Shown here piece by piece: positions 12,079 to 20,388 of a DNA stretch of 37,016 bases (the stretch's first letter is position 1; the number at the start of each line of letters is the position of its first letter). Source of the stretch: Wenzhouxiangella sp. Its GTDB lineage: Bacteria > Pseudomonadota > Gammaproteobacteria > Xanthomonadales > Wenzhouxiangellaceae. The stretch covers positions 1-37,016 of the forward strand of contig SKQS01000061.1 of assembly GCA_007118895.1 (NCBI GenBank), written 5' to 3'. The notes under the pieces are model-generated. The model saw only the letters and a list, made by a program, of their open reading frames with translations, was not told the DNA's origin and searched no databases. The translations under genes were made by a program, and so were the position numbers.

Positions 12079-12528
12079 ATGGGCAGACCCGCCGCGCCAT
12101 CCACCGTCTCGACCAGCCCGGTAGCGACTTTGCTTGGCTGGCTGGGCGTCATTCCGTTCGTCACTTTCGCCCTCGATGGCTGGCTGGACTGGCACGGCTG
12201 GTCGGATCTGACGCTGCTGTTGAAAACCTACGCGCTGCTTATCCTGAGCTTCCTGTGTGGCTGCCTTTGGCTTGAGGCGCTCAAGGCCGATCATCGTCTG
12301 GCGCTGATCGCCAGCAATCTGATAGTGCTGGTTGGCTGGCCTCTGATCCTGGTGCCGGTCGCCCTGGCCGGGCTGATGCTGGCCGTTCTGTTCGTGACAG
12401 TCTGGTTCGGCGAACGTCTGGTGGCTGAAGACCGTCCCGGCTGGTATCAGCGGCTGCGCAGTCGGCTTTCCATCAGCGTTGCCGTGCTCCTGGCGACAGG
12501 TGCCCTGGGCCACCTGTTCCATGGCTGA
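12079..12528 (+). CDS. DUF3429-type integral membrane protein
   Basis: The 149-residue product is almost entirely membrane helices (about residues 17-37, 48-66, 74-92, 95-114 and 132-148). The start GWLGVIPFV and the stretch YALLILSFLCGCLWLEAL resemble the DUF3429 family; the match is by eye. AGGA lies just upstream of ATG 12079. It is the first gene of the ABC-transporter operon and overlaps the ATPase start by 8 bases, so a membrane role linked to the transporter is possible, but DUF3429 proteins have no established function. Confidence 0.75.
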   Translation: MGRPAAPSTVSTSPVATLLGWLGVIPFVTFALDGWLDWHGWSDLTLLLKTYALLILSFLCGCLWLEALKADHRLALIASNLIVLVGWPLILVPVALAGLMLAVLFVTVWFGERLVAEDRPGWYQRLRSRLSISVAVLLATGALGHLFHG

Positions 12529-13189
12529 ACCGGTACTCCAGCTGAGCGCCATTTCGCGTGCCTTCGGATCGGGCGACGAGAAGACCAGGGTGCTGGACGA
12601 TCTGGACCTGGTCATGGGAGCTGGAGAACGCATTGCCATCATGGGCAGCTCCGGCTCGGGCAAGTCGACCCTGTTGCACATCGCCGCAGGTATGGATCGC
12701 CCCGATGCCGGCCGGGTTCGGATTGCCGGCACTGATCTGGCCGGGCTGGACGAGCCAGAGCTGACCCGGCACCGGGCGCGCCACATCGGCCTGGTTTTCC
12801 AGGATTTCAACCTGATGGACAGCCTGACCGTATCGGAGAATATCGAGCTGCCGTTGTGGCTCAATGGGATCGCCCGGCGCGAGCATGCGGTCTCGAGACT
12901 GGCCGAAGAGCTCGGCATTGGCGGCCTGCTCGACAGGCTGCCGGAATCATTGTCGGGCGGAGAGAAACAGCGAGTGGCCATCGCCCGGGCACTCGTTCAC
13001 CGTCCACTGCTGGTGCTGGCCGACGAGCCGACCGGCGCCCTGGACGAGGTAACGGCCGCCAGCGTCATGGCCCTGTTTGAAGAGGTTACCAGGCAGAGCG
13101 GCGCCAGCCTGCTGCTGGTGACCCACGACCGCGATGTGGCCGCCGTTTGCCAGCGCACCCTGACCCTGTCTGGCGGACAGCTGCACTGA
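12521..13189 (+). CDS. YbbA/LolD-type ABC transporter ATP-binding protein
   Basis: This 222-residue ATPase belongs to the MacB/LolD/YbbA subfamily that drives FtsX-like permeases. Motifs in order: Walker A GSSGSGKST (42-50), Q-loop LVFQDFNLM (91-99), signature LSGGEKQ (144-150), Walker B LLVLADEP (163-170) and H-loop His202 (LLVTHD). ATG 12521 is inside the end of the DUF3429 gene. The product stop (TGA) shares a base with the permease ATG. The partner permease and the AttH-like protein downstream suggest a YbbAP or AttEFG-AttH system, probably moving lipid or other hydrophobic cargo, though the substrate is unknown. Confidence 0.93.
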   Translation: MAEPVLQLSAISRAFGSGDEKTRVLDDLDLVMGAGERIAIMGSSGSGKSTLLHIAAGMDRPDAGRVRIAGTDLAGLDEPELTRHRARHIGLVFQDFNLMDSLTVSENIELPLWLNGIARREHAVSRLAEELGIGGLLDRLPESLSGGEKQRVAIARALVHRPLLVLADEPTGALDEVTAASVMALFEEVTRQSGASLLLVTHDRDVAAVCQRTLTLSGGQLH

Positions 13190-15633
13190 TGTTGCTTGCC
13201 AGAAGCTCTTTGCGTTTTTTCGCCCGGCATCCGGGACAGCTTGCGCTGGCATTGATCGGCATTGCTGCAGGCGTGGCGGTAATGACCGGCGTGCTGCTGA
13301 TCCGCCACGTGCTGCTTGATGGCCTGGACGAGGCCAGGGCCGAACTGGCCGGTCCGGACAGCCTTCGCATCGTGTCGACTACAGGCGCCATCAGCCCGGA
13401 ACAGTTCGCCAGGCTGGCGCTGACAGACGGAGCCCCGGAGCTGGTGCCGGTACTGCGTCAGCGCGTTCGGATCGGAGATCGCCGACTGGAGCTGGTCGGG
13501 ATAGACCCGCTGACTCTGGCCACCGGCAGCAGATTTCAACTCAGTGGCTTCGAGGCCGGGCAGCTGCTTGGCGGCACCAACCGGGTCGCATTGAACGCCA
13601 CCACGCTGTCACGGCTCGGCGCCGGACAGGATGAAACCGTGGACTTGACGGTTGGCCAGCGCACCCTGGCAGTCGAGCTCGCGCTGGTTCTGGATGGCAA
13701 CCGCGGGCTCGATGACCGCCTGCTGATGGACCTGGCCTCAGCCCAGCACCTGCTGGGCGGCAAGGCCGAGATCACGCTGATCGAAGCACCGGCACAAGCC
13801 GGAGAATGGCTGGCCAGGCATCTTCCGTCCGAGCTGGTGCTGCAAGGCGCCGAAATCCGGCGCGAGGAGGCCCGACGCCTGACGGCAGGCATGCGCGCCA
13901 ATCTCAGCGCAATGGGCCTGCTCGCGCTGGCCGTCGGACTGTTTGTGATTTTTGGTGTTCTCAACTTCCTGCTGGTCCAGCGTCGCAGATCATTTGCCAT
14001 CATTCGCGCGATAGGCGTCACTCCTGCACAGCTCGATCGGCAGCTGTTGCTTGAAGCGATGGCACTGGCCGGATTGGGAGGCCTTGCCGGATTGGTGATC
14101 GGCACCTGGCTGGCCGACCGGCTATTGGACCTGGTCCGACGCCCCCTTCTCGAGGTCTATCAGGCACTGCCGGTGGCCGGGGTCGAGCCCAGCGTGGCGC
14201 TTTACCTAGGCGTGCTCGTCCTCACCCTGGCCGCAGCCGCGCTGGCGACCGCACCGGTGCTGATCGAGGCGCGACAGATTCCACCCGGGCAACTGGTTCG
14301 GTCGGATCGCCGACCTGCACTTCAGCGACGCTGGATCATCCTGCTCATCAGCGCCGGCCTCACCCTATCCGGAGCGCTGGTACTGGTTGGCTCCGACGGG
14401 CTGCCGGCCGCGCTGGTCGGCTTGTTCCTGGTGCTGGCCGGTCTGGTCGTACTGGTACCTTCGATCGCTTTTGGCATCATCAAGCTGGGGTCCAATATCG
14501 GTCAACCCGAACTGTTTTCCCGGGCGCTCGGGCTGGTCCAGGGCGGGCGCCGACGCCTGGCACCGGCGATTGCTGCATTGACGCTGGCGCTGGCCCTGGG
14601 GGCCGGCATAGGCATGATGGTCATGGGCTTCCGCGTTGCGGTCGATGACTGGATCGACCGCCTGCTCCGAGCCAGCGTTTACCTCACCGTGGATGCCGGA
14701 GTGATCGATCAGCGCGTGGTCGACGCGGTAGCCTCCAGCGCAAAGGTCGTGGCAATTTCCTCGGCCCGTCGGATCGAGCTGGCCGACGGCCATATCCTGG
14801 TAGCCTACGATCTTCCCGAGCCGGCCTGGGGAGGCTTCGACTGGGTGGCCGGTGACCAACCCCTTGCCCGCGAGGCCTTCATCGCCGGAACCGGTGTGCT
14901 GATCACCGAGCCGCTGGCCAGACATCGACAACTGGACCTGGGGCAAACCATCAAGCTGTCAACTCCCGCCGGCGCGCAGTCCTTCGCGATCGCCGGCATC
15001 TTTCGGGATTACAGCAGCGAGCAGGGCTTTGTCGCCATCAATGGTCCCACCTACCGGCAGATCTGGGATGACCCGGTTCGTGACAGCCTGGGACTCTACC
15101 CGGCCACTGATGTCAGCCTGGCAGACCTGCACAGATCGATCGCTGCGATCGAAGGACTGGCCGGGCGGGAGCGGCTGACCACTCGCGAGGAGATCCGCAG
15201 CGAAACGCTGGCGGTCTTTGATCGCACCTTCCGCATTACCACCGCCCTGGCCGTGCTGGTCGGCCTGATTGCCGCCGTATGCCTGCTCAGCGCGCTGCTG
15301 GCCATGGTGCTCGAGCGCCAGCGTGACTACGCCACCTTGCGGGCACTTGGCCTGCCCGCGCACCGGCTGTTCATGCTGGTACTGGTTCAGACCGGCGCCC
15401 TGGCGCTGACCGCGCTGCTGCTGGCCACACCGCTGGCGACGCTGATTCACGGCCTGCTGTCATTGACCGTACAGCCACGTGCCTTCGGCTGGAGCGTGCC
15501 GGTAGTCTGGGCCTGGCAACCGGTGTTGGCCCTGGTGCCGGTGGTCATTGTCGTGGCGCTTGTAGCCGGTCTCGCGCCGGCCCGACGGCTGGCCCTCACA
15601 CCGCCCAGCCGGCTGCTTCGTGGCGACCGGTGA
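13189..15633 (+). CDS. YbbP/FtsX-type ABC transporter permease (large, two FtsX domains)
   Basis: This 814-residue permease has an N-terminal helix (LALALIGIAAGVAVMTGVLL), a periplasmic domain of about 200 residues, a first three-helix FtsX core (about 240-360), a middle pair of helices, a second periplasmic domain, and a C-terminal three-helix FtsX core (about 690-805) ending in PSRLLRGDR. The doubled FtsX layout matches YbbP and corresponds to a fusion of AttF and AttG-like halves. ATG 13189 overlaps the ATPase stop (TGATG), and its own stop overlaps the next start (GTGA), so all are probably translated together. Confidence 0.92.
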   Translation: MLLARSSLRFFARHPGQLALALIGIAAGVAVMTGVLLIRHVLLDGLDEARAELAGPDSLRIVSTTGAISPEQFARLALTDGAPELVPVLRQRVRIGDRRLELVGIDPLTLATGSRFQLSGFEAGQLLGGTNRVALNATTLSRLGAGQDETVDLTVGQRTLAVELALVLDGNRGLDDRLLMDLASAQHLLGGKAEITLIEAPAQAGEWLARHLPSELVLQGAEIRREEARRLTAGMRANLSAMGLLALAVGLFVIFGVLNFLLVQRRRSFAIIRAIGVTPAQLDRQLLLEAMALAGLGGLAGLVIGTWLADRLLDLVRRPLLEVYQALPVAGVEPSVALYLGVLVLTLAAAALATAPVLIEARQIPPGQLVRSDRRPALQRRWIILLISAGLTLSGALVLVGSDGLPAALVGLFLVLAGLVVLVPSIAFGIIKLGSNIGQPELFSRALGLVQGGRRRLAPAIAALTLALALGAGIGMMVMGFRVAVDDWIDRLLRASVYLTVDAGVIDQRVVDAVASSAKVVAISSARRIELADGHILVAYDLPEPAWGGFDWVAGDQPLAREAFIAGTGVLITEPLARHRQLDLGQTIKLSTPAGAQSFAIAGIFRDYSSEQGFVAINGPTYRQIWDDPVRDSLGLYPATDVSLADLHRSIAAIEGLAGRERLTTREEIRSETLAVFDRTFRITTALAVLVGLIAAVCLLSALLAMVLERQRDYATLRALGLPAHRLFMLVLVQTGALALTALLLATPLATLIHGLLSLTVQPRAFGWSVPVVWAWQPVLALVPVVIVVALVAGLAPARRLALTPPSRLLRGDR

Positions 15634-16775
15634 CTGAAACCGCCACCCGATCCGGCAGATTGATGCCGCTGTTGATCGTGACAGTTGCTGTCGCCGCACT
15701 GATGGTCATATGGCTTGCACGGCAAACCGTGAATCCGGAACCAACGGTTCAGCCGATGACCGCGCGCGGGCTCTTGAGCAATGCGCCGGAAGCGTTCCGG
15801 CGCGTCACCGGGCCGCAACCCCTGAACTTTCCTCAAGACCACGGTGCCCACCCGGACTATCGCAACGAATGGTGGTATTTCACCGGCAATCTGAGCGATA
15901 GGCAGGGCCGTCGCTTCGGTTTTCACTTCACCCTGTTCCGGTTTGCGCTTGGCGCGCTCGAGACCCTCGATTCGCCGTTCCATGCCGATCAGCTGTGGAT
16001 GGCCCATCTGGCCTTGAGTGATGCCGAGCGCGGCCAGCACTTTCAGGCCGAGCGCTTCGCTCGCGGCACGCTGGGCCTGGCCGGAGCAACGCCCGAGCGC
16101 TGGTGGCTGCGCGACTGGACAGTCGAGTGGCAAGCCGACGCCTGGCATCTGAAGGCGGCAGGCGAAGAGTTTGCCCTGGCGCTCCGTCTTGCGCCAACCC
16201 GGCCACTGGTGCTGCAGGGCGATGCCGGCTACAGCCGCAAGGGCCCGGAGCCCGGCAATGCCTCTCGCTACTACTCGGCCACTCGGCTGGCAGCCGATGG
16301 CAAGCTGACGCGCGAAGGGGAGCTTGTTGAGGTCAGCGGACTGGCCTGGCTGGACCGGGAATGGGGATCAAGCCAGCTGTCTCCCGACTTGTCGGGATGG
16401 GACTGGTTTGCGCTGCAGCTGGATGATGGACGCGACCTGATGGTCTATCGCCTGCGCCGAGACGATGGCACTGCTTCACCGTTTTCCGCCGGCGTGCTGG
16501 TTGACCCCGACGGCAGCTATCAAACCCTTCAGAAGCATGATTTCACGGCAAGACCTCAGCGATGGTGGACCGACCAGCAAGGCGCCAGCTGGCCGGTGGA
16601 ATGGCAGCTGAAACTTCCCCTGGCCGAGCTCTCCATGACCGTCGAGGCCGTATTCGACGAGCAGCTTTTCACCGGCAGCGTGGTGTACTGGGAAGGCGCG
16701 GTCGATGTGCTTGACACCGCCAGTGGCGTGACCCTCGGCAAGGGATACCTGGAACTCAGCGGCTATGCCGACTGA
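15630..16775 (+). CDS. AttH/CrtC-type lipocalin-like protein
   Basis: The 381-residue product has an N-terminal hydrophobic anchor (about residues 11-29) and then the two-lobed beta-barrel of the AttH/hydroxyneurosporene-synthase (CrtC, Lipocalin_9) family: NEWWYFTGNLSD and FGFHFTLFRFA in the first lobe, WLDREWGSSQL and GWDWFALQLDDGRDLMVYRLR in the second. Carotenoid hydratase activity is unlikely because no carotenoid genes are present. In other genomes the family commonly follows the same kind of ABC genes. It probably acts in the periplasm as a binding partner of the transporter. The GTG start at 15630 overlaps the permease stop. Confidence 0.88.
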   Translation: MTETATRSGRLMPLLIVTVAVAALMVIWLARQTVNPEPTVQPMTARGLLSNAPEAFRRVTGPQPLNFPQDHGAHPDYRNEWWYFTGNLSDRQGRRFGFHFTLFRFALGALETLDSPFHADQLWMAHLALSDAERGQHFQAERFARGTLGLAGATPERWWLRDWTVEWQADAWHLKAAGEEFALALRLAPTRPLVLQGDAGYSRKGPEPGNASRYYSATRLAADGKLTREGELVEVSGLAWLDREWGSSQLSPDLSGWDWFALQLDDGRDLMVYRLRRDDGTASPFSAGVLVDPDGSYQTLQKHDFTARPQRWWTDQQGASWPVEWQLKLPLAELSMTVEAVFDEQLFTGSVVYWEGAVDVLDTASGVTLGKGYLELSGYAD

Positions 16776-16785
16776 ATGTTCTTTT

Positions 16786-17745
16786 TTAGTGGACGCGCAG
16801 TCGGTCCAGTGGCGAGGAGGGCATGGTCTCGCCAGACAACCTGGCCAGCGTGCCAGCGTCCATGTCGCGGTAGGCGCCGGTACCAAGCAACCGCTCGACC
16901 GTACTCATTGCGACCCCGCTTTGAATCAGGTGCACGGCAAAGCTGTTGCGCAGTGTGTTTTTGCCGATCTGCTTCATGATGTTGGCCTCGCTGGCGGCCA
17001 GGGAAAAGCGCCGGCGGATTACGGTTTCCGAGACATGATCGGTGCTTGAGCGACGACCGCTTCCCGGCACCGGCAGGAAAAGGTATTGCCATTGCCAGCT
17101 GCGCGCCAGGTTGGGCTGACGACGGGCAACCTCTTCCGGGAGCGCGGTTTGACCGTAACCACTGGCCACTTCCTCGATGTGCTGGGCGCGCCGTATCTCG
17201 AGATGTCGCTTGAGCGGCTCAAGCACGGTCTGAGGCAGCATGGTGTGGCGTTTGAGCGTCCCACTCAGGCCATGAACCAGAATGCGGCCGTCGGGGATAT
17301 CCAGGTCGCGATTGCGCAAGCGCACGCATTCGAGCAGGCGCAAGCCCGAACCGTAGCAAAGCGCAGCGATCAGAAAGGATAATCCCTCAAGATGCGAAAG
17401 CAGCCGCTGTACTTCCTCGGGAGACAGCACGGTTGGACCGGTACCAGAGAGCCGCTCGCGCAAGTAGTTCTCGATCCACGGTGGCCGCATTTCGAAAACC
17501 CGGGCATAGAGCAGCTCTATGGCCTTGAGCGCCTGGGTGCGCGTCGCCGCCGAAGCATAGCGATCCATGGCCAGATGGCGCATGAAAGTGTCCAGGTCCT
17601 CACGGCCCAGCGCCGACAGGTCGCGACCATCGAAAAATAGCAAAAAGGCACGCGCCCAGTACAGGTATGACTTGGCAATCAGGTGCGAGCGGGCCCGTCC
17701 GGTCAGTCCGCGGCGCAATTCACAAAGCAGCTTCCCGGTCTCCAT
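16786..17745 (-). CDS. Integron-integrase (IntI) homologue lacking catalytic tyrosine
   Basis: The 319-residue product aligns by eye along its whole length with IntI tyrosine recombinases: N-terminal SAM-like domain, then YGSGLRLLECVRLR, TMLP, the IntI-specific insert region (GYGQTALPEEVARRQPN, then WQWQYLF), NTLRNSFAVHLI, VERLLG and the C-terminal SPLD. Catalytic residues kept are Arg136, Lys165 and Arg266. Lost are the HxxR His (Asn263), the LLGH His (Thr289) and, in an ungapped C-terminal alignment, the nucleophile Tyr (Gly298). The frame is uninterrupted. Strand exchange is therefore not expected. ATG 17745 was chosen because a TTG further upstream lies inside the likely -35 box. No attC or cassette array is visible beside it. 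Confidence 0.88.
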   Translation of the reverse strand: METGKLLCELRRGLTGRARSHLIAKSYLYWARAFLLFFDGRDLSALGREDLDTFMRHLAMDRYASAATRTQALKAIELLYARVFEMRPPWIENYLRERLSGTGPTVLSPEEVQRLLSHLEGLSFLIAALCYGSGLRLLECVRLRNRDLDIPDGRILVHGLSGTLKRHTMLPQTVLEPLKRHLEIRRAQHIEEVASGYGQTALPEEVARRQPNLARSWQWQYLFLPVPGSGRRSSTDHVSETVIRRRFSLAASEANIMKQIGKNTLRNSFAVHLIQSGVAMSTVERLLGTGAYRDMDAGTLARLSGETMPSSPLDRLRVH

Positions 17746-17766: not shown

Positions 17767-17781
17767 CGATACCGGGCACAA
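17753..17781 (-). promoter_or_regulatory. Predicted sigma-70 promoter of the integrase homologue
   Basis: On the minus strand TTGTGC (17776-17781) and TATATT (17753-17758) are spaced 17 bases apart. The ATG at 17745 lies only 7 bases beyond the -10 box, so a transcript from here would be leaderless or nearly so. The promoter starts just after the amidohydrolase stop codon. Confidence 0.5.
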
Positions 17782-17793
17782 TCGCGCCGAGCC

Positions 17794-19089
17794 TCAATCC
17801 GGTGCAAAGTAGACCTGGCCATCGCGCATCACGAAGGGCACCGAACCCAGCACGGCCACATCTTCCAGCGGATCGCCCTCGACGGCGATGATGTCGGCCA
17901 GATAGCCGACCTCGATCCTGCCCAGACTATCGGAAACGCCGAGCAGCTCGGCGCTGTTGACGGTGGCCGTACGCAGGGCCTCGGCCGGACTCATCCCGGC
18001 CTCGACCATCAGCGCGAACTCGCCGGCATTGGATCCGTGCGGGCAAACGCCGCAGTCTGTGCCGAAGGCAATCGGCACGCCTGCAGCATGGGCGCGACCG
18101 AAAGTGGCCTGGATCAGCGGTCCGATTTCCGCTGCCTTGGCGCGCACGATGGGCGGGAAATAACCGTCAATCTTTGATTTTTCGTAAACGAACTGCCCAG
18201 CGGAAATGGTCGGCACGTACCAGGTCCGATGCTCGATCATCAGGGCAATCGCCTCATCGTCCATGTAGGTGCCATGCTCGATCGAGTGCACCCCGGCACG
18301 AATCGCCCGCTTCATGCCTTCCAGGCCATGAGCATGGGCGGCGACATGCATGCCGTAGTCACTGGCAATGGCCACGACCGCAGCAAGTTCTTCATCGGTG
18401 AACTGGGGATTCTGGCCGCTGGCGGCAACGCTGAGCACACCGCCTGTGGCTGTGATCTTGATCAGGTCGGCGCCATCCTTGTAGCGCTGACGCACTGCCT
18501 TGCGCGCCTCGTCGGCACTGTTGATGACACCGTCGCGCGGGCCGGGATCGCCCATCAAGTCACGGCGCCAGCTGTTGGTCGGATCGGCATGCCCGCCGGT
18601 GGTTGCCAGCGACTTGGCCGAGGTGAAGATGCGCGGACCGATCACCTCGCCACGTGCGATCGACTCACGCAGCGCGACACTGACGTTGAACTGGTCGCCA
18701 AGATCGCGCACGGTAGTAAATCCGGCAGCCAGCGTAATCCGGGCGAAATGGCTGCCGCGCAGAGCGATATCGGCCTCGTTCCAGGTAAAGCGCTGGACGT
18801 AAGCCTCCGGCGAAAACTCCGACGACAGGTGGGTATGCATATCCATCAGCCCCGGCAGGCAGGTCAAGCCGGACAGATCAATGAGCTCTTCGTCATCATC
18901 GGGTGGTCGGTGGCCGGCATGGATAGCTGCAATACGATCCTCTTCAACGACGATGGTTGCAGCCTCGCCGGTAACGCCTGCATCGACATCGACCAGGCCA
19001 CCGCAATGCAGCCAGAGCTTGTCGGCATGAACCGAAGAACTGAAAAGCATCGCGACGACGATGCACGGGACAAAAACACGGATCACCAT
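17794..19089 (-). CDS. Exported metal-dependent amidohydrolase (prolidase-like family)
   Basis: The 431-residue product has a signal peptide (hydrophobic to about residue 22, site near VHA|DK) and an amidohydrolase TIM barrel with the binuclear metal ligands visible: H85-T-H87 (MDMHTHL), Lys211 (LIKITATGG), His252 (AAHAHG), His272 (SIEHGT) and Asp345 (FGTDCG). The pattern, with KITATGG and TTVRDLGD, is that of the imidazolonepropionase/Xaa-Pro-dipeptidase-like group, whose characterised members cleave acylated or proline-containing dipeptides. The exact substrate is not known. ATG 19089 is preceded by AGGAG; the frame extends further upstream without a better start. Confidence 0.88.
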
Positions 19090-19151
19090 ACTGCTCCTGA
19101 TCTTGATCAACCCGAAGTATAAATGTCGCATGCGAACGAGCGCAGCCGGGC

Positions 19152-19964
19152 TCACGCCAGCCAGCCGGCCAGTAGCAGCAGGCTGAGCACCACCAGCCAC
19201 AGGATCAGCATTCGCCAGGCCAGCTCCAGGCCCCGGCTCAGACCACCTTCCAGGGGCAGGCCGTGCTCGACCAGGCGAGAAGCGACATCATCAAGCAGTC
19301 CGCGCGTCAGCACCCAGCCTAGGCGGCTTCGGCGATGGGCGAACCAGGCCTGGGTCACGCGATCGAAATCAGTAGTCAGCGCTGCGGCCAGCACAACCAG
19401 GAACAGCACCGGCCATTCCATGACCACCTTGAGTCGTATCACCCAACGCGCTTTCGTATCGTCCAGCGCCGACTCGGCCAGGGTGCGCTCAGCCAGCCGG
19501 TAGATCATGGCGCCGCCCGGCCCAAGCAGAACAAACCAGAATACCGGCGCGAACCAGCGCTCGACGGCTGCTGCCATTACCCGGGAACAGGCCGTCTCTG
19601 CGTTGTCATGTTGCCCCAATCGCAGGGCAACGCGAGCCTCACCGGCATGCATATCGGCCGGATCGTCAACCAGCAGGCCGACGTCGTGATCCAGATCGCG
19701 GGGACCGAGCACGTAGAGGAACACCACCAGCGCCAGAAACAGCCAGCCGAAATGCCCGAACAGCCCGACCAGGATCCAGCCGGCCAGCCAGGTAACGCTG
19801 AGGGCGAGGAGTACCACCCCCAGCATCGCAGACCATGCAAGGCGCGGCAATGCCTGGCTGAAGGAATCAATCGCCACCATCCAGGGCCGGAAGCGGCGCC
19901 ATTCAACGATGGCCGGCAGAAAATGGCTCAGCACAAGGCCGAGCAGTAGGATCAGGATGGTCAC
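19152..19964 (-). CDS. ampE: AmpE-like inner-membrane protein
   Basis: The 270-residue product has four or five membrane helices (about residues 2-18, 44-65, 67-86, 140-160, 180-198 and 250-268) and carries the family-like stretch [18 protein letters not shown]. This matches AmpE, the inner-membrane protein encoded beside AmpD and linked to beta-lactamase induction signalling in enterobacteria. Here no ampD is beside it; the neighbours are erpA and an amidohydrolase. The start is GTG 19964, since the ATG 5 bases upstream runs immediately into a stop. It follows erpA by 33 bases. Confidence 0.75.
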
Positions 19965-19997: not shown

Positions 19998-20339
19998 TCA
20001 GGCGACACCGAAAGAGGAGCCGCAGCCACAGGTGGTCGAGGCATTGGGGTTGCGAATCACGAAGCGGGCGCCCTGCAGGCTTTCGCTGTAATCGACCTCG
20101 GCACCTTCGAGGTACTGAAAACTCAAGGGGTCGACCACCAGCGTGACGTCGTTACGAACGACCGTGATATCGCCGTCCTCAATGCTGTCATCGAAGGTAA
20201 AGCCATATTGAAAGCCCGAGCAGCCGCCACCGGTAATGTAAACCCGCAGCTTCAGGTCGGGATTGGCCTCCTCCAGGATCAGCTCGCGCACCTTGGCAGC
20301 GGCAGCATCGGTGAAGATCATCGGCTCAATTTCGGTCAT
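19998..20339 (-). CDS. erpA: Iron-sulfur cluster insertion protein ErpA
   Basis: ErpA is an A-type carrier that delivers iron-sulfur clusters to client enzymes. The 113-residue product has the near-invariant [19 protein letters not shown] block with Cys40 and the C-terminal CGCGSSF motif with Cys104 and Cys106, the three cluster ligands. It fits ErpA better than IscA because of [11 protein letters not shown] and the acidic N-terminus. ATG 20339 gives the usual length of about 114, with GGAG about 11 bases upstream. It is the first gene of the minus-strand group running to the integrase homologue. Confidence 0.96.
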
Positions 20340-20388
20340 CACGGCATTCTCCATTCGTCCAGTCGCCGAAGCGAACCACGGCAAAAAA

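Follow-up and report, generated by a model that had tools for sequence, protein, structure and literature searches.

The closest described relatives of the protein reported here are the integron integrases (IntI), including VchIntIA (IntI4) and IntI1, which are captured by the TIGR02249 model. VchIntIA reads extrahelical attC bases through P232, H240 and H241 and through Q145, W157, K209, Y210 and W219, the last of which contacts base G20'' (PMC3053210), and intI genes have been scored for functionality at individual residues (PMC3108266). Pseudogenes are common among intI genes, at about one third (PMC2426708); those known from Xanthomonas and other hosts are recent frameshifts, stops or truncations beside cassette arrays (PMC2426708, PMC12444791). 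MrpR, the master repressor of the SPbeta prophage, is a DNA-binding protein with a tyrosine-recombinase fold that has lost most catalytic residues (PMC10516654); TnsF of Tn6022-like Tn7 transposons is a tyrosine recombinase that has been inactivated and now serves in DNA targeting (PMC10293859); and domesticated eukaryotic proteins derived from Crypton and DIRS elements document host reuse of the DNA-binding parts of tyrosine recombinases (PMC3212892, PMC3537659).

The gene described here lies in a 37,016-nucleotide stretch of Wenzhouxiangella DNA that was analysed as a whole (the window). Its product resembles IntI over the full length, with a SAM-like N-terminal domain, the IntI-specific insert, the WxWQYLF stretch, an SPLD end and both catalytic arginines, but it belongs to a clade that lacks the catalytic lysine, the tyrosine and one or two active-site histidines, has RN in place of RH, and sits without attC at a fixed chromosomal site beside housekeeping genes. 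Like the known intI pseudogenes, these are inactive chromosomal IntI genes of the same order; unlike them, the clade is ancient, missense-inactivated and intact in frame, and is under purifying selection. MrpR, with which a DNA-binding activity would be shared, is phage-borne and not derived from IntI, and it keeps the lysine and tyrosine but not the arginines, the reverse of the dead clade. TnsF is transposon-borne, carries zinc fingers and retains no more than part of the catalytic domain, whereas the window protein is full-length, host-borne and single, and the Crypton- and DIRS-derived proteins are eukaryotic and come from different recombinase lineages. A literature search, which did not reach most subscription journals, found no earlier report of a conserved dead IntI clade.

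Results

An integron-integrase frame that lacks most catalytic residues

Translation of the gene gave an intact frame of 319 codons plus a stop (Table 1); an in-frame TTG at 17781 is also a possible start. The TIGR02249 model spanned residues 7–316 (E 1.3e-67) with a score of 228.4 bits, under the NCBI cut-off of 265 bits, and the best solved relative by sequence was VchIntIA (PDB 2A3V, E 9.9e-36), which bears out the sequence-only reading of the protein as an end-to-end IntI homologue. The IntI-specific insert (alpha-I2 and the beta-4,5 region) is present and aligns without large gaps. An AlphaFold model had a mean pLDDT of 89.7, and 2A3V chains ranked top in a Foldseek search with this model (TM-score 0.55, rmsd ~15 A); the high rmsd would be consistent with domains that are oriented differently in the model, which contains no DNA.

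We read the catalytic columns after aligning the window protein to VchIntIA together with 41 intact IntI proteins, using 2A3V numbering for IntI residues (K163 and so on). Functional IntI proteins carry the set R-K-H-R-H/W-Y. The corresponding residues of the window protein are R136, L164, N263, R266, T289 and G298, so that it reads R-L-N-R-T-G, and four of the six catalytic residues are lost. The sequence-only reading had likewise placed glycine at the tyrosine position and asparagine and threonine at the two histidine positions, with both arginines kept and a gap-free C-terminal alignment. It had also taken Lys165 for a retained catalytic lysine, an assignment that proved to be off by one column: GKGxKDR and LSGTLKR align without a gap and place Leu164 at the lysine position. 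Because Lys165 sits where IntI has Asp or Asn, the catalytic lysine is lost as well. The window protein thus combines a predicted tyrosine-recombinase fold with the loss of recombinase residues.

Table 1. Features of the window, with positions of the whole stretch and counts across the 23 members of the dead clade.
Feature	Position	Strand	Basis or remark
Dead integron-integrase homologue, 319 aa	16786..17745	(-)	Translation, TIGR02249, 2A3V, AlphaFold model
Arg136, catalytic Arg I (= R135)	17338..17340	(-)	Alignment; kept in 21/23
Leu164 at catalytic Lys position (K163)	17254..17256	(-)	Alignment; Lys in 0/23
IntI-specific insert region (alpha-I2), residues 190–215	17101..17178	(-)	Arg209/Gln210 at attC-reading K209/Y210
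WQWQYLF, residues 217–223	17077..17097	(-)	Trp219 = VchIntIA W219
Asn263 at catalytic His (H267 of VchIntIA)	16957..16959	(-)	Alignment
Arg266, catalytic Arg II (= R270)	16948..16950	(-)	Alignment; kept in 23/23
Asn267 (= H271), clade-wide RH to RN	16945..16947	(-)	Alignment; 22/23
Thr289 at catalytic His (H293)	16879..16881	(-)	Alignment
Gly298 at nucleophile Tyr (Y302)	16852..16854	(-)	Alignment
Amidohydrolase, directly upstream of dead gene, flank	17794..19200	(-)	
CbiB/CobD-like protein, flank	19152..19964	(-)	
Fe-S cluster assembly protein (A-type), flank	19998..20384	(-)	
CrtC-like lipocalin-domain protein, convergent flank	15630..16775	(+)	
FtsX/MacB-like permease, flank	13147..15633	(+)	
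ABC transporter ATPase, flank	12479..13189	(+)	

The same losses recur in two families

Beyond the window we found 22 dead homologues, for a total of 23. They come from two families within the order, namely the window's own Wenzhouxiangellaceae (f1), including the environmental isolate Wenzhouxiangella strain XN79A, and a second family (f8), one member of which is the Gammaproteobacteria MAG JAJRYF010000053.1. The f1 search returned dead homologues in 13 genomes besides that of the window (G000), one of which (G001) carried a second, divergent copy, and the order-wide search added eight proteins from five f8 genomes, among which G170 and G217 each have a tandem pair and G142 has two separate copies. 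In a class-wide sample of 369 genomes, nothing else outside the window genome scored above 332 bits; the dead members score 367–462. The second G001 copy (contig C277, L160:4831-5817) is a very divergent dead IntI paralogue in which Arg I is replaced by Lys and RH by RL. Plasmid matches were at most about 35% identical and of IntI1 type, viral matches were at most 38% identical, and homologue reading frames taken from viral loci keep the tyrosine; carriage of the dead clade by plasmids or viruses was rejected on these grounds.

All 23 members lack the lysine and the tyrosine and keep Arg II, 22 have RN for RH, and 21 keep Arg I, with histidine retained in five at the H267 position and in nine at the H293 position. 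Three positions are near-fixed in the clade, unlike in intact IntI (K to R146, H to N267 and Q to E284). Among 137 intact-frame homologues, a redundant set, every protein without the tyrosine fell in the dead clade, except for one truncated gene. Substitutions of the same kind are therefore found across genera and in a second family, and the recurrence of these losses in 22 relatives excludes chance or sequencing error as the source of the missing tyrosine.

In an IQ-TREE phylogeny, a single branch with 100/100 support split the 23 dead rows from 41 intact rows, and the support stayed at 100/100 with the columns from residue 255 onward and the three longest branches removed. Within the dead clade, f8 and f1 subgroups mostly sort with their hosts. 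The tree is unrooted and is thus compatible with a clade inside or beside the sampled IntI; the IntI-specific insert held in common assigns the clade to the IntI lineage. The lysine, the tyrosine and active-site histidines were most simply lost once, before the f1/f8 split, and the clade is old, vertically inherited and of single ancestry. Long branches (G006, which lacks Arg136, G011 and the second G001 copy, G001b) suggest that constraint was relaxed in some lineages.

A conserved chromosomal locus with repeated loss

Only 48 bp separate the dead gene from its upstream neighbour in the window. The gene occupies one locus in 14 f1 genomes, mostly with the amidohydrolase and CrtC-like genes on either side, in the order FeS protein, cbiB-like, amidohydrolase, dead gene, CrtC, FtsX permease, ABC ATPase; the exceptions are G012 and G017, in which the amidohydrolase is not adjacent. 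In most f8 members, cbiB/FeS genes or an amidohydrolase gene lie within a few kb. Of the 43 f1 genomes, 29 lack the dead gene, and the locus itself persists in at least 14 of these; the gene is therefore dispensable. Gaps at the gene-less loci are clean and short, and we found no recognisable remnant or decayed copy in them; ancestral presence followed by repeated loss is the simplest account of this distribution. Inverted repeats that are long but imperfect, AAACGCAAAGACGC / GCGTCTTTGCGTTT (L129:3385-3598, L130:3244-3526, L131:2193-2459), are frequent in the convergent gap at gene-less loci, and the gap of G031 (L142:3167-3643) is filled by what looks, by eye, like a small antitoxin-like gene.

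Purifying selection on the dead clade

GY94 estimates of omega for f8 pairs were 0.028 for G150/G170d (2dlnL against omega = 1, 346) and 0.156 for the downstream tandem copies G217d/G170d (2dlnL 77); for f1 pairs they were 0.047 for G025/G023 (199), 0.104 for G013/G015 (167) and 0.146 for G009/G004 (90). Between the window gene and G001, omega = 1 was also rejected (2dlnL 127.7), but synonymous sites are saturated, and the window gene's own estimate comes from a comparison with a relative of 46% identity. For the upstream tandem copies G217u/G170u, which have few synonymous changes, omega was about 2 (not significant), compared to 0.1–0.16 for the downstream copies. Frames are intact in 23/23 members, whereas a simple neutral simulation at 0.5 substitutions per site left 0/200 copies free of stops. 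Thus, the dead clade is under purifying selection, with omega of 0.03–0.16 in several orthologue pairs and omega = 1 strongly rejected. The sequence-only reading had proposed that selection maintains a catalytically dead IntI and that ordinary decay would have left frameshifts; the recurring orthologues and the dN/dS values bear out the former.

Integron components in carrier genomes

The window genome, which is 95% complete, has two further IntI genes with all catalytic residues on contigs C252 and C109, and eight other carriers of the dead gene also contain an intact full-length IntI. The remaining five of 14 carriers do not: G001, G006, G011 and G027 have neither an intact IntI nor a detected attC site, and in G023 an attC site was detected, again without an intact IntI. 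A covariance model built from 16 attC sites, nearly all of the order, was run on 43 f1 genomes and detected attC equally often in carriers (8/14) and non-carriers (17/29), with the largest arrays in two non-carriers (G016 and G022). Searches with an attC pattern and this model gave no site at the window locus or at the other dead loci examined, so that no cassette array adjoins the dead gene there; the one site in the window genome lies elsewhere (C189). As the model misses divergent sites and most assemblies are fragmented, this co-occurrence argues against an integron role only in part.

Among the residues through which VchIntIA reads attC, W219 is kept in 21/23 dead proteins and H241 in 19/23. 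Position 145 is Arg in 20/23 and position 157 is Arg in 21/23, the latter as in the intact IntI proteins examined here, and K209 and Y210 are mostly replaced. With this mixture of kept and replaced residues, the dead protein may have kept an ability to read DNA shape, although its reading of attC would differ somewhat from that of IntI.

Sequence elements upstream of the dead genes

Two elements were considered as candidate operators. A block upstream of the f8 dead genes, GATCAACGGATTGGTCAC (L217:8990-9030, L218, L219, L216), is near-invariant despite saturated synonymous sites. It overlaps promoter-like hexamers and is flanked by CACTTTG and CAAAGTG arms, both of which carry a matching change in G142 (CGCTTTG/CAAAGCG), and exact copies were found only at the f8 dead genes. 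In f8, and likewise in the f1 genome G001 (C40:12761, L262), the dead gene has a palindrome, TGTAGGAWATWTCCTACA, on its upstream side. This palindrome occurs once more per f8 genome near purA (G150:C86, G170:C88, G142:C49; L257-L259), and is present at a few further places in G001, one beside what looks like a REP-associated transposase. It may be an operator or a mobile palindrome; because it recurs at a few other places and is absent from the window, where we found no operator, we regard it as a lead only.

Discussion

Two explanations would deny the protein a new role, and we assign each a negligible probability. A decaying pseudogene with a frame intact by chance would account for the missing catalytic residues and would be in keeping with the frequency of intI pseudogenes, the many losses at the locus and the high but non-significant omega of the upstream tandem copies. 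The single ancient origin, the uninterrupted frames and the rejection of omega = 1 contradict it, as does the recent origin of the lesions in known intI pseudogenes; the frameshift, stop, deletion and relaxed selection that characterize such genes are not what we found here, and recurrence and dN/dS rule out both a pseudogene and a sequencing error. An active recombinase with a displaced nucleophile is no more credible: the window protein does have a tyrosine, Tyr292, six residues upstream of the normal position, but the tails of 19/23 members contain none, the other four share no tyrosine position, and the catalytic lysine is missing throughout. An alternative tyrosine nucleophile was rejected because no tyrosine is common to the family tails.

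Roles alongside active recombinases deserve more weight, although none is favored. As an integron modulator, the dead protein would bind folded attC or join intact IntI in mixed tetramers and thereby restrain or bias cassette recombination. Retention of W219, H241 and a basic residue at Q145 in most members, an IntI-like SPxD tail in many, and the co-resident intact integrases speak for such a role, but the five carriers without an intact IntI, the equal frequency of attC in carriers and non-carriers, the loss of the alpha-I2 residues K209 and Y210 and the absence of attC at the locus make it unlikely. Since four of those five carriers also lack detected attC, inhibition of a resident integron is not the whole explanation for the protein, and restraint of that integron as its sole role is not supported by co-occurrence. 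The sequence-only reading had offered a regulator, an attC-binding factor or a dominant inhibitor; the same observations fit the last two less well, and a DNA-binding regulator, for which there are precedents, is plausible. Tyrosine recombinases act as tetramers with no more than two subunits cutting at once, and the dead protein could join XerC/XerD or a different active tyrosine recombinase as a catalytically silent subunit, or serve as a decoy for it, as the tandem copies in G170 and G217 might hint. This idea seems improbable, as the C-terminal part, with the tyrosine helix and subunit docking, is among the least conserved (mean 0.45, compared to 0.80 in intact IntI).

We consider it probable that the window protein is a host-domesticated pseudo-recombinase, an IntI-type protein that lost catalysis, became fixed at one locus under purifying selection and probably binds DNA. 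A tyrosine recombinase of the IntI lineage lost its nucleophile, catalytic lysine and active-site histidines, most simply in one event before the f1/f8 split, and the gene has since passed from parent to offspring at a single chromosomal site, held by purifying selection. Most of the N-terminal domain is kept, as are the arginine pair, Trp219 and His237 (= VchIntIA H241), which suggests that the conserved activity is DNA binding. The protein would have an IntI-like fold and contact DNA through the phosphate-binding Arg136 and Arg266 and the SAM-like N-terminal domain, with Arg146, Trp219 and His237 as a retained part of the IntI base-reading surface, and DNA would be bound but not cleaved. By analogy with the phage repressor MrpR, it probably binds a specific DNA sequence or structure and most likely serves as a regulator or local architectural factor, acting outside integron recombination. 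A more specific version, that IntI was domesticated once as a chromosomally fixed, integron-independent DNA-binding regulator, possibly one that reads folded single-stranded DNA hairpins, is put forward tentatively, at somewhat less than even chances.

Our results suggest that an enzyme of gene capture was repurposed by its host as a DNA-binding protein in a different role. IntI proteins have so far been treated as either active or decaying, and a conserved dead clade would represent a third fate, host domestication. They also carry a warning for annotation, as frame-intact IntI matches should not be counted as working integrons before the lysine, histidines and tyrosine have been checked. If folded hairpins are still bound, the clade would provide a bacterial regulator of a rare kind, one guided by DNA structure, and IntI DNA recognition would have been separated from catalysis.
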